Shown here piece after piece: positions 4,701 to 37,878 of a DNA stretch of 54,645 nucleotides. The stretch comes from a virus. Position numbers and translations under genes: made by a program. The stretch is taken from positions 1 through 54,645 of the IMG/VR virus record IMGVR_UViG_3300042562_001062; one strand, written 5' to 3'. The notes under the pieces are model-generated. The model had not been told where the DNA came from. It was given only the letters and a program-made list of their open reading frames with translations, and did no database searches. Every line of letters begins with the position of its first letter. Within the stretch, counting starts at the first letter, position 1.

Positions 4701-7700
4701 TGTGATTCGCCGGGTGACAAAGCCCGACGAGGTGGCCGCACTTCCGCAGGATAAAATCACTGGCCTGCCAACCGATTTGGGTACTGCGATTGAGTTCGCA
4801 AAGTCTGGCGCAAATCTGATTACTGACCCTAGTTTTGAGAACGCTACCCTCGACGCTTCACGGGCCGCGCTTTTCGTCGGCGGGACGTGGACGCATGACA
4901 CTGTGAGGAAGCGCAGCGGCAGCCGCGCCCTGAAGTGTGTCTGGGGTTCGGGCCAGCCATACATTCTTCAGGTGCCGTCGCTGCGTTCTACCGACAAGAT
5001 CGCTACCCGTTCTGGCGCGAAATACTTTGTTTCGCAATGGGTGTTTGCCGACAGCACAAACAGCGGCACAAACACAATCGGCATGTTTCTGGAATGCACC
5101 GACTCGCAGGGTGTGCTTCCGCTTGTCTATGAGGGTTACACCCAGGCCGTCGCTGAGAACGCCTGGGTCAAGATGGAAACTGTCTTGACGGTGCCGGCGG
5201 GTTATGACCGGGTGCGTTTCTACATGTGCGGTGTCCGCACGGGGGCTGTGGCCGGTGATGATTTCTGGTTCGATGACCTGGAAGCCTACGAAGTCACTGA
5301 AGCTGTCAAGGCCCAGGAGGAAGCCGAAGCCGCGAGGGACTTGAGCCTTGAGGTCATTTCTTCTGGCGCGAACCTGATAAAGAATCCCAGCTTTGAAAGC
5401 ATTTGGTTTCAGCAGTTGGGTTCGCTGTTCACTCCTTTGCAGAAGCGCACCGGATCGTTCTCGTTGATGCTGACCGGCAACCAGTCCTCGACGGTTTCCT
5501 ACGCACTTCTGTCGGATAATTCGGCCACGCGGTTTTTGAATGTGCAGGGCGACGATGTGCTGTACGCGGAAGTCTGGGTGCGGGGCACAACAACTAACTC
5601 GCAGACCTCTGGCGGCACCGACGGCATCAGGATGCTGTTTGAGCCGTTCAATAGCTCCAACCAGGCTATTGCGCTGACGGACAACTTCATTGGTTTGACT
5701 GCCAGCACCGCGCTGAACAATGTGGCTACGAATAGTGGCTGGACGAAGATGTTTGGTTACATCACGATGCCGGTTGGCACGGTGAAGTGCAAGGTCAGTT
5801 TGCAGTTGACCTCTGCGGTCAAGGCTTTGGACTCTTACTTCTTCGATGACGTGGTGGTGCGCGAGGTCACGCTGGGTAAGAAAGGTGTTGACGAGGCCGC
5901 GCTGGCGCAGGGTGCCGCTGCCACCGCTGGCGGCAGAGCCATTGCGATCAATCAGAACCTTTACGGTCAGGACACCCCAGGCACGGTAATTCCTGAGGGG
6001 AAGGTGGAGAACCTTCCTACTGTTAGGACAACAGCGAACACCGCACAGAGCATTGCAAATGCAAACATCCAGTCCGGTTCAAATCTGTGTGCCAATCCAG
6101 GTTTTGAAAACCTAAGCTTCTACAACAGTTCGCTTTACAGCACTGAGCAAAAGCGTTCCGGTACGCGGTCATTGAGGCTGGCGGGAACTGGCAGCACCAA
6201 CGTGGATGCGTGGGCCACCATTGACAACGCGGGGATTGTGTTTGTCCCAGCGTCACAGGGCGACGTGTTTTACATGGAGTTCTGGATCATGGGGCGGCCT
6301 GCTGCTGTCGGGCCACCGGCTGTTGCGGCCAATGTTGGCGGCGGCACAATCCAGATGTTCATGTCTGTGTATAACAAGGACAATGTGGGGCTGACGTTCC
6401 CCGCCATAAACGTGACTGGCACCACGGCACTTAACGGTGTGTGGACGAAGTACAGCACCTACACCCCTGCGCTCCCCGCAGACACGGCTTCGATGCATGT
6501 TCGGTTCCGTTTAGGGACAACGGTTCCCGCGACGGACGTGTATTACTTCGATGATGTTGTGGTGCGCGAGGTCACTGAAGGCAGTGTCGCCAAGGCGAAC
6601 GCGGGGGCGGCTGACACTAAGGCGCAGGCCACGGTTGACAAAGTTGTCGAGTCGGTTTCCGGTGTTGTTTCTTCTGGCAATACGCCAGCGAGCGTCAAGA
6701 CGAGCTTGCAGGATGCGTGGTCAAAATTCTGGGAGGGTTTGACCGGCAACACTGGAAGCAACAAGTTGCCGTCCGACGTGAAGGCCGGGGCAACTCTTGT
6801 CAAGACGAAATCTGACGACGCTTTCAGGGATGCTGGCTTGGCTGACGGTAAGGCTGTCAAGGCTAAGAACGCCGCAGGTATTTCCATTGCATCGGGCAGC
6901 AATCTGGTGGCTAATGCCAGTTTTGAGAATTTCGAGATCCCGGTGGTGGGTCAGTGGGCGTACTCCACTGAGCAGGCCCGCACGGGCACCCGGTCAGCGA
7001 AACTCACTTCCAATGGCAGCAGCAATCAGGCCATCATCTTGGGCACTGACGGCGACGGCGCGGAACTGGATGTTCTGTGTTCTCCTGGCGACATCTTCTA
7101 CGTCGAGGCGTGGATTCGGGGGGCCGGGACTAACACTGCGACAACGGGCAGTTTCTACATTTCCAGCCGGTTCCGTAAGAAGCATCCGACTACTGGTGTG
7201 GTCACGCTTGAGTATTTGACGGGCGAGGCGCTGTACCCCACCACCAGCCTCAATAATCTCAAGACTGGCTGGGCGAAGATTTCCGGTTATGTCACCGCTC
7301 CCGCCGACTCATACGGCTTTAACCCTTTGGTGATCGTCGGCAGCAATATCGCGGCGAGTAATCATTGGTATGTCGATGATGTGACGGTGCGCGAGGTGAC
7401 CACGGCGCAGGCCACACTGGACAACATTGTGCAGTCTGTCACTGGCGTAACCGCGACGGGCAACTCCCCTGTCAACGCCCAGAATAAACTCGTTGATGCC
7501 TGGACTGAGTTTTGGCGGGGACTCAACAAGGATCAGACGGGCACCAACAAGCGTCCAACCGATGTGAACACGGCTGCTGCTGGTCTTCGGGACAGGGCGA
7601 ATGATGCGTTCAACAAGGGCAGTGACGCTGAAGGAAAGGCGATTGTAGGGCAGGGGATTACCAAGTCCTACATTGAATCCGGCAGCAATGTTCTCCCCAA

Positions 7701-21589: not shown

Positions 21590-22474
21590 TTAGGCGATCT
21601 TCTTGGCTGCCCGCTTGACGGGTGCCTTCTTCGCGGGTGCGGGTGCCGGCGCCTCAGCGGGGGACTTGGCTTCGATCGACGCCGTGAGTTTCGCAAGCAG
21701 GTCCGACACGTCGGTGATGGCGTTGTCGTCACCGCCGTGCGCGATGCTGGCGATCTCCCCACCGGCGGCCTTCACGCTGATCGCCTCGTTGAGGTTGTCG
21801 GTGTAGGTGTCGGTGTAGTCGGACGGCTTCCAGGTTTTGGTCATCGTCTCGGCCAGCGACCGCATCACCGGCATCAGCCGGGGATCGACATCGGCGTCAC
21901 TGTCCGGAACCCCGCTGGCTTCGCGCAACTCGTCGGGCCACATCATGTTACGGATGATGAGGGAGCCGGTGGTCTGCTCGATGTCCAGCAACGCCAGGTG
22001 GTTACGTCCCCACCGGACGTAGGTGACGATGCCGACGATGCCGTCCTCGGCCAGCACCTTGCGGATCATCTTGTAGGTGACCTCGGCCTGCTTGCGCTTG
22101 GGGTCGGGGATCAGCCGGTAGACGTTCTGGTCGGCGAACAGCATCGGGTCGATCTGATCGGCTTTGACGAACTCGGGAACCTCCAGCGAGGTGCCGGTGT
22201 TGGCGGCGACTGTTTCCAGTTCGCTGGCGGTGAGGACGATCGTCTCGCCGTTCTCGTCGAAGCCTTTGCAGATTTCGTGCGAGCTGAGGGTTTCGCCGCA
22301 GCCCTCGCAGGACTTCGGCATCTTGACTTTGCCGTAGCTGCCGTCGTCGTGCTGGTGGTACATCGAACCTTTGCGGTCGTGGTTCTCGATGATGCCCACC
22401 ATCTTGACGGGGCAGCTGACCAGCCCGACGGTCAGATCGAGGTTGGCGATGGAGCGGGTGGAGGGTGCAGCCAT
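21590..22474 (-). CDS. ku: Ku DNA end-binding protein
   Basis: A 294-residue bacterial/phage Ku. Characteristic segments: the start with IANLDLTVGLVSCPVKMV, the CEGCGETL zinc-like pair at about residues 56-59, KGFDENGETIVLTASELE, and YRLIPDPKRKQAEVTYKMIR followed by VGIVTYVRWGRNHLALL. The tail is Ala/Pro/Lys-rich, as in bacterial Ku. Ku encircles DNA ends and recruits a ligase; phage Ku in Corndog and Omega is thought to help genome end-joining. Start has AAGCAGG upstream. Confidence 0.92.
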   Translation of the reverse strand: MAAPSTRSIANLDLTVGLVSCPVKMVGIIENHDRKGSMYHQHDDGSYGKVKMPKSCEGCGETLSSHEICKGFDENGETIVLTASELETVAANTGTSLEVPEFVKADQIDPMLFADQNVYRLIPDPKRKQAEVTYKMIRKVLAEDGIVGIVTYVRWGRNHLALLDIEQTTGSLIIRNMMWPDELREASGVPDSDADVDPRLMPVMRSLAETMTKTWKPSDYTDTYTDNLNEAISVKAAGGEIASIAHGGDDNAITDVSDLLAKLTASIEAKSPAEAPAPAPAKKAPVKRAAKKIA

Positions 22475-34696: not shown

Positions 34697-34918
34697 TCAA
34701 AGGGTGAAAGACTCCTGCCGCTGCAAGATTTCGGCGGTTTTCTGCTCTAGCATCCGGCCGTACGCGCCGGGTGCCGTCTCGTGCAACTCGGCGGTCAACT
34801 CGGCGAGCAGAGCCTCCGCACGCGCCAAGATCGCACGTTGCGTGGCGATCTGGCTGAGCAGCGAACGCTGACGGCGCTCCACCGACGTTTGCACGGCGGC
34901 GATGCTGCCGCGCTTCAT
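34697..34918 (-). CDS. Coiled-coil protein, 73 residues
   Basis: Starts MKRGSIAAVQTSVERRQRSL; continuous helix (LLSQIATQRAILARAEALLA) with Leu/Ala heptads. Overlaps the HTH gene stop by ATGA, so the two are co-translated. Possibly a partner of the regulator; inference from position. Confidence 0.65.
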   Translation of the reverse strand: MKRGSIAAVQTSVERRQRSLLSQIATQRAILARAEALLAELTAELHETAPGAYGRMLEQKTAEILQRQESFTL

Positions 34919-35184
34919 TTCCCGGCCTCTGTTGCGATCTGCAACACCGGGAAGTCGTCGCCGATCTGCTTACCGCGGGAAAGCAGATCCAGCGACGTGG
35001 TACGCAGCGCGGCGGCGAGAACGTCCAAGGTTTGGAAGCTCGGCCACTTTTTACCGTTCTCGATCTCCGCGAGGAACGGGTAGCTGATACCCGCGGCCGC
35101 AACGAGGTCTTTACGTTTCATGCCGCGCTCAATGCGGGTGCAGGCGATAGCCCGACCCAGGTAAATCGCGTTGACGTTTTTCAT
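34915..35184 (-). CDS. XRE-family HTH regulator
   Basis: An 89-residue Cro/C1-type protein. Residues about 9-65: GRAIACTRIERGMKRKDLVA, AAGISYPFLAEIENGKKWPS and TLDVLAAALR, a textbook XRE helix-turn-helix. No dimerisation or cleavage domain follows. The C-terminus LQIATEAGK is encoded by palindrome copy 29. Ribosome site GAGAGA upstream. Candidate repressor or anti-repressor; also a candidate binder of the palindrome. Confidence 0.82.
   Translation of the reverse strand: MKNVNAIYLGRAIACTRIERGMKRKDLVAAAGISYPFLAEIENGKKWPSFQTLDVLAAALRTTSLDLLSRGKQIGDDFPVLQIATEAGK
34929..34947. repeat. 19-bp palindrome copy 29 (spacer gatct)
   Basis: Left arm begins C. At the 3' end of the XRE gene, 11 bp upstream of the coiled-coil gene start. 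Confidence 0.87.
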
Positions 35185-36219: not shown

Positions 36220-36321
36220 TCAGGGCCGGTTGATGCGGACGGGGCGCGCCGGGAAGTAAAAGGCCTTGCCGAAGCCGCTGGCGACGATCGCGCCGATGCT
36301 GAAAGCAATCCACTGGGACAT
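36220..36321 (-). CDS. 33-residue membrane peptide, first leftward early gene
   Basis: ATG at 36321 preceded by AGAGAGG. MSQWIAFSIGAIVASGFGKA then FYFPARPVRINRP: one span with a basic tail. It is the first gene read from P5, so it is expected to be expressed early. Confidence 0.6.
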   Translation of the reverse strand: MSQWIAFSIGAIVASGFGKAFYFPARPVRINRP

Positions 36322-36410: not shown

Positions 36411-36429
36411 GTGTTGCAAAACGCAACAC
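36411..36429. repeat. 19-bp palindrome copy 34 (spacer aaaac)
   Basis: Perfect arms directly upstream of promoter P5. Confidence 0.9.
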
Positions 36430-36443
36430 GCTTGCCGCTGCAT

Positions 36444-36621
36444 TCCGATGACGTGGGCGGGCTGCGCCATTCCGATTCCGTGTGCAGCGGCTCGATCCCC
36501 CGGCTCCGATCCGTGCGCGGCGCGACTCCGATTCCGATTCGTGCGCGTGCGCGTGCTGCTTCGCGCCGCCTTCCGATGTCCGTGCGCGGGCCTTCCGATG
36601 TCGGGGCGCGCGCCTTCCGAT
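36444..36621. repeat. Eight TCCGAT repeats in the divergent control region
   Basis: TCCGAT begins at 36444, 36471, 36505, 36527, 36533, 36572, 36594 and 36616, with GTGCGCG motifs between them. The last three share CCTTCCGATGT at 22-bp spacing. No gene is supported in the 590-bp gap 36322-36915; long open frames here reflect GC bias. Confidence 0.7.
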
Positions 36622-36685: not shown

Positions 36686-36701
36686 TCGAACAGCCGTTCG
36701 A
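36686..36701. promoter_or_regulatory. LexA (SOS) box 1
   Basis: TCGAACAGCCGTTCGA matches the mycobacterial/actinobacterial LexA consensus TCGAAC-N4-GTTCGA exactly. Confidence 0.8.
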
Positions 36702-36712
36702 ACCAGGCCCGG

Positions 36713-36728
36713 TCGAACGGCTGTTCGA
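36713..36728. promoter_or_regulatory. LexA (SOS) box 2
   Basis: TCGAACGGCTGTTCGA, a second exact match 27 bp from the first. Together the two boxes form a larger inverted repeat (36686-36728), with one base missing in the right arm, favouring cooperative binding. Confidence 0.8.
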
Positions 36729-36776
36729 ACGGCTCCGGCGGCTCCGGCGGCGCTCCGGCTCCGGCGGCTCCGGCGG

Positions 36777-36795
36777 GTGTTGCGTTTCGCAACAC
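36777..36795. repeat. 19-bp palindrome copy 35 (spacer gtttc)
   Basis: Perfect arms, 35 bp upstream of the -35 of promoter P6. Confidence 0.9.
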
Positions 36796-36829: not shown

Positions 36830-36858
36830 TAGACACTCTCCGGCATATGCCGTAACGT
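36830..36858 (+). promoter_or_regulatory. SigA-like rightward promoter P6
   Basis: TAGACA, 17-bp spacer, TAACGT (same -10 as P5). ACCC precedes the -35 by 2 bp, as in the leftward group. It reads into the gene at 36916. Confidence 0.75.

Positions 36859-36915: not shown

Positions 36916-37878
<963 letters not shown>

Follow-up and report, generated by a model that had tools for sequence, protein, structure and literature searches.

A conserved pair of LexA-type boxes beside iteron-like repeats in a relative of the Corndog-like mycobacteriophages

Why would a phage in which no integrase can be recognised carry two perfect sites for the SOS repressor LexA in a divergent control region, and what might these sites control? 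The question arises from an uncultivated virus contig (IMGVR_UViG_3300042562_001062), whose whole 54,645-bp stretch was analysed and is called the window below. Both sites matched the 16-bp actinobacterial and mycobacterial SOS box, TCGAAC-N4-GTTCGA, exactly:

36686-36701, no strand assigned: LexA (SOS) box 1, TCGAAC-AGCC-GTTCGA (TCGAACAGCCGTTCGA), exact match
36713-36728, no strand assigned: LexA (SOS) box 2, TCGAAC-GGCT-GTTCGA (TCGAACGGCTGTTCGA), exact match; the same 16-mer occurs in the relative G001 (see below)

As the original prediction had stated, these were perfect sites. They were also the sole exact ones in the window, and no further site with zero or one mismatch was found elsewhere along it. 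Under a first-order Markov model of the window, 0.007 exact boxes were expected (two were observed), and the expectation for box pairs within 60 bp was 6e-8 if boxes are independent. Moreover, among the 27 half-sites that give perfect 6-4-6 palindromes in the window, TCGAAC was the only one to occur twice. The two 16-mers, 11 nt apart, are exact reverse complements of each other, and to that extent the larger inverted repeat claimed for them is real; but because each box is itself palindromic, the repeat concerns just the reverse-complementary N4 spacers (AGCC/GGCT), plus a few flanking bases, and it was absent from relatives.

In IMG/VR, box pairs spaced by 4-20 nt were present in 36 stretches, whereas two scrambled palindromes matched in composition gave 2 and 1. 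Pfam searches of the ORFs beside the other paired-box loci returned mostly unknowns, the exceptions being an SNF2 helicase, a glycosyltransferase and a weak HTH. Several LexA-type boxes (three to six) were clustered in contigs L004 (for example at 7105-7333), L017, L018, L025 (472-740, upstream of an SNF2-type helicase) and L038.

Judged by its proteins and gene order, the window virus is a relative of the Cluster O mycobacteriophages (Corndog, Firecracker, Catdawg, Dylan and YungJamal; PMC4351075), and not a member of Cluster O, because its DNA identity to them is too low for blastn alignment: no Cluster O genome was among the matches listed for blastn of 34-40 kb or megablast of the tape-measure gene. 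Its primase/polymerase was 59% identical to the Cluster O counterparts, its AAA ATPase and ParB-like protein were 70% and 56% identical to those of Firecracker, and it encodes, as Cluster O phages do, a beta clamp and a Ku-like end-joining protein (21590-22474, minus strand). The order and directions of the primase, AAA ATPase, ParB-like, beta clamp and Ku genes agreed between window and Firecracker. A long leftward arm (~14-36.3 kb) adjoins the divergent region (36.33-36.92 kb), to the right of which lies one rightward gene, the counterpart of gp128, which is the only gene that runs rightward at the right end of Cluster O genomes. Synteny would place the joined genome ends around 37.9-38.8 kb; beyond them come the leftward genes that correspond to the left end of Cluster O genomes, then the primase (44.5 kb) and the terminase, portal and capsid genes.

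The likeness extends to the genome plan, the divergent right-end region and its repeats, a PL6-like promoter, 17-bp palindromes and, from the present analysis, two LexA-like boxes; LexA goes unmentioned in the published analysis of Cluster O (PMC4351075). A 17-bp dyad repeat in more than 30 copies is characteristic of Cluster O; in the window the palindromic core GTTGC-N5-GCAAC occurs exactly 41 times (909-52483, densest at 15578-36793), mostly within GTGTTGC-N5-GCAACAC and often between leftward genes. The sequence itself differs, the Cluster O repeat being TGTTCGG-N3-CCGAACA.

Tyrosine (PF00589) and serine (PF00239) recombinase families had no match in the window, in agreement with the prediction that it holds no recognisable integrase. 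Cluster O phages likewise encode no integrase and are not known to form lysogens (PMC4351075), which leaves the lysis/persistence decision that had been proposed for the boxes without support.

The surroundings of the boxes were compared with those in Firecracker and in a divergent environmental relative (IMGVR_UViG_3300042540_000947, here G001), whose AAA ATPase and gp128-like protein are 90% and 38% identical to those of the window. The features in the window are:

34915-35184, minus strand: small HTH protein of XRE/Cro type, encoded within the leftward arm and a candidate for reading the 17-bp palindrome
36220-36321, minus strand: 33-aa small protein, the first leftward gene; G001 homologue with 50% identity over 32 aa
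36370-36398, minus strand: leftward SigA-like promoter TTGACG-17-TAACGT, counterpart of TTGACA-17-TAACGT in G001 and of PL6 in Firecracker
36411-36429, no strand assigned: copy of the genome-wide palindrome GTGTTGC-N5-GCAACAC, left of the iteron-like repeats
36444-36621, plus strand: eight direct TCCGAT iteron-like repeats; at the same place, eight in Firecracker and six in G001
36730-36776, plus strand: GC-rich GGCTCCGGCGG repeats that separate box 2 from the next palindrome
36777-36795, no strand assigned: further copy of the genome-wide palindrome, right of the boxes and left of the rightward promoter
36830-36858, plus strand: rightward SigA-like promoter TAGACA-17-TAACGT, with counterparts at the same place in G001 and Firecracker
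36916-37878, plus strand: Ala-rich protein of 320 aa that carries a putative HTH and is remotely homologous to Cluster O gp128; the boxes precede its gene

One order was common to the window, G001 and Firecracker: leftward SigA-like promoter, 17-bp palindrome, TCCGAT repeats, the two boxes, palindrome, rightward SigA-like promoter and gp128-like gene. The predicted position of the boxes between a leftward and a rightward promoter was thereby borne out; a stricter generic scan of the region picked up neither promoter. The leftward promoter of Firecracker matches the published PL6 of Cluster O (PMC4351075). The TCCGAT repeats are candidate replication-origin iterons, and complex repeats to the right of the PL6-associated AT-rich element have been considered a plausible replication origin in Cluster O (PMC4351075). 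The AlphaFold2 model of the 320-aa gp128-like protein was poor (pLDDT 57), too poor for a fold search.

A direct effect of the boxes on a promoter found no support. No recognisable promoter is overlapped by the boxes, which in the window lie in 74% GC DNA devoid of any -10-like sequence and ~100 bp upstream of the nearest -35 (box to rightward -35: 103 bp in the window, 162 bp in G001 and 92 bp in Firecracker). Textbook LexA operators, unlike these boxes, overlap promoters. Relative to the start codon, the boxes stand at -230 and -203 in the window, and about 380-410 bp upstream in G001. The window positions are slightly outside the range tabulated for regulated SOS boxes of Streptomyces venezuelae, which reach up to about -199 from the start codon (recA, -162; PMC9380542).

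Conservation in relatives had been set beforehand as the refutation test, and both boxes were found in every relative whose region could be read. Their presence in a nearly identical contig (G003/L003) says little. In G001, on the other hand, two perfect boxes occupied the same syntenic place, and in the alignment 24/24 half-site bases were identical to those of the window, while the spacer of box 1 had changed at 3/4 bases (AGCC versus GTGC), with all 12 of its half-site bases kept. All of the Cluster O phages inspected (12/12) carried two CGAAC-ATRC-GTTCG boxes, 49-50 bp apart, in the right-end intergenic region; the full box is ACGAAC-ATRC-GTTCGA, its outermost T being replaced by A on one side, and the sole variation within either box across the 12 phages was A/G in the N4 spacer. 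By blastn, the Firecracker region was matched by 31 phage records. A 42-kb relative (G002) had one perfect box near its contig end, seemingly cos-proximal, and its divergent region seems to lie off the contig; an IMG/VR search for more relatives by AAA ATPase plus gp128 returned just the known contigs and Ryadel.

Whole-genome scans of Firecracker, Ryadel and Catdawg found no other core, save one in a terminator-like hairpin after gp128 (Firecracker and Catdawg). At the Firecracker right end (L052:21268-21308), this hairpin is followed by a T-run and its stem holds the LexA-like core ACGAACGTGCGTTCGA. The core is also present in the post-gp128 hairpin of Catdawg, Dylan, YungJamal and Ashwin, reads TCGAACGTGCGTTCGG in Suarez and is degenerate in others.

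At the same place in the relatives the half-sites were thus more constrained than the spacer; the sites, their positional conservation, this constraint and the shared architecture are what the analysis shows. Because the half-sites were kept in place while the spacers varied, the box pair appears to be an old, selected protein-binding element and not a hairpin accident. Fixed half-sites around a free spacer are the pattern to be expected of a protein-binding site whose reader stays fixed.

That reader is likely host LexA, because the window encodes no LexA-like protein: the LexA DNA-binding domain (PF01726) had no match in the window, and a phage-encoded LexA was rejected as the reader on that ground. 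The boxes equal the M. tuberculosis SOS box, TCGAAC(N)4GTTCGA (PMC4181829), and the S. venezuelae LexA motif is tCGAAC-N4-GNNCGa (PMC9380542). A protein search of genome contigs with the AAA ATPase gave only matches of ~30-38% identity in MAGs of archaea, proteobacteria and others, which pointed to no host. A divergent, GC-rich control region with LexA-type boxes is also found in the Gordonia Emilbogenvirinae phages IDyn and GTE8:

L073:3260-3320: three LexA-type boxes of IDyn
L074:3240-3296: three LexA-type boxes of GTE8

In contrast to the window, this region of IDyn and GTE8 has neither TCCGAT iterons nor the 17-bp palindrome, and it apparently represents an independent case.

We favour, with a probability of roughly 0.6, the reading that these are genuine SOS boxes bound by host LexA, forming a conserved right-end element that restrains the gp128-like gene, and possibly the iteron/origin-like array, until the SOS response. 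LexA binding, the direction of its effect, its target and the consequence are inferred. In an undamaged cell, LexA on both boxes would hold the element down, most simply by restraining transcription of the gp128-like gene and possibly also the adjacent iteron/origin-like array; RecA would then trigger LexA self-cleavage and release the element, the trigger being either outside damage or the phage's own replication. This would likelier be a step in the lytic programme than a lysogeny switch. LexA would at most tune or time that programme, and not block it fully, because Cluster O phages grow on undamaged M. smegmatis and yield no known lysogens. Counting against host LexA in this role are the off-promoter position of the boxes, their distance from the start codon in G001 and the outermost T to A change on one side in Cluster O.

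The main rival keeps host LexA and moves its target: bound beside the TCCGAT iterons and away from any promoter, LexA might restrain origin firing, or transcription through the origin, until SOS relieves it, so that in these non-integrating, apparently lytic phages it would gate the replication origin or an origin-binding protein. This is a tentative possibility, well behind restraint of the gp128-like gene, which we prefer. It would account for several features: i) the boxes always adjoin the iteron array; ii) repeats near PL6 were called a plausible origin (PMC4351075); iii) the boxes do not sit on a promoter; iv) the product of the adjacent gene is a putative DNA-binding protein. On the other hand, another repeat and AT-rich region (Corndog genes 12/13) is an equally good origin candidate. 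We know of no established case in which LexA controls a phage origin without a promoter, and this counts against such gating. If it were true, DNA damage, whether of the host or inflicted by the phage, would set the timing of phage replication.

An unlikely reading is that the boxes are operators of a different dimeric regulator, phage-encoded or of the host, that shares the half-site of LexA. Phage DNA-binding proteins are indeed at hand (the XRE-type HTH protein at 34915-35184, the ParB-like and the gp128-like proteins), but the 12-base LexA consensus is exact in two divergent lineages and near-exact in Cluster O. Moreover, the 17-bp palindrome has changed in sequence between lineages and the box has not, as expected if the box has a conserved host reader; most simply, a phage protein would read the palindrome and co-evolve with it, while a conserved protein of the host would read the box. 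The palindrome class has been kept while its recognition sequence switched genome-wide, offering a natural case of a DNA-binding protein that co-evolves with dozens of sites.

Somewhat more doubtful still is that the boxes act as decoys, with replicated phage DNA titrating LexA and so raising host SOS and repair functions useful to the phage. Two strong, off-promoter boxes per genome, in a phage that carries Ku, beta clamp, ParB-like and AAA genes, would fit such a role, but two sites are few, and titration needs no strict position between iterons and rightward promoter. The reading of the boxes as an RNA or DNA hairpin (terminator or attenuator), with the LexA match a by-product of the inverted repeat, is very improbable and was rejected: although the window arms pair perfectly (z -7.0) and the terminator-like hairpin of Firecracker at 71288 has a LexA-like core, neither strand has a T-run after the window hairpin, the region sits between divergent promoters, the spacer pairing is lost without compensation in G001, and in Cluster O the two boxes are direct copies with 50 bp between them.

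Most phages known to sense host LexA are temperate. The present comparison suggests that Corndog-like, apparently non-integrating phages read the SOS state of their host, in which case lytic phages, too, would couple their development to DNA damage in the host. They might then react to DNA-damaging antibiotics, for example quinolones or mitomycin, a point of relevance wherever phages and antibiotics are combined. The question is directly testable, because Cluster O phages grow on M. smegmatis mc2155 in laboratory use.

A mainly open-access literature search found no paper that describes LexA boxes in phages of Cluster O or of Gordonia. One close likeness is Bacillus phage GIL01 (Betatectivirus; PMC4551915), which has adjacent LexA sites (dinBox1/1b) in a control region, host LexA as their reader and no integration. 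GIL01 is an unrelated phage, and its boxes lie in promoter P1 and, with the phage protein gp7, maintain a lysogenic linear plasmid, whereas the window boxes are off-promoter, with no lysogeny known and no gp7 counterpart identified. In coliphage 186, the CTX prophage and SPC32H, which PMC9437464 cites as a group, phage-borne host SOS boxes let DNA damage alter phage expression, as proposed here; these phages are temperate, LexA represses an antirepressor or a co-repressed promoter, and they are prophage systems with boxes in promoter regions, in contrast to a window that has no integrase and a target gene of no assigned function. Virulent phages regulated by CtrA or Spo0A (lytic deferment, phi29; PMC9437464) offer another likeness, a non-lysogenic phage sensing host state via a host transcription factor; the regulator, hosts and phages are other ones, and binding was tested there. 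Thus the use of host LexA by phages (GIL01, PMC4551915; others, PMC9437464) and the reading of other host regulators by virulent phages are already known, while a conserved pair of LexA boxes, distant from promoters and next to iterons, appears to be undescribed so far for the Corndog-like phages, which are apparently non-lysogenic.
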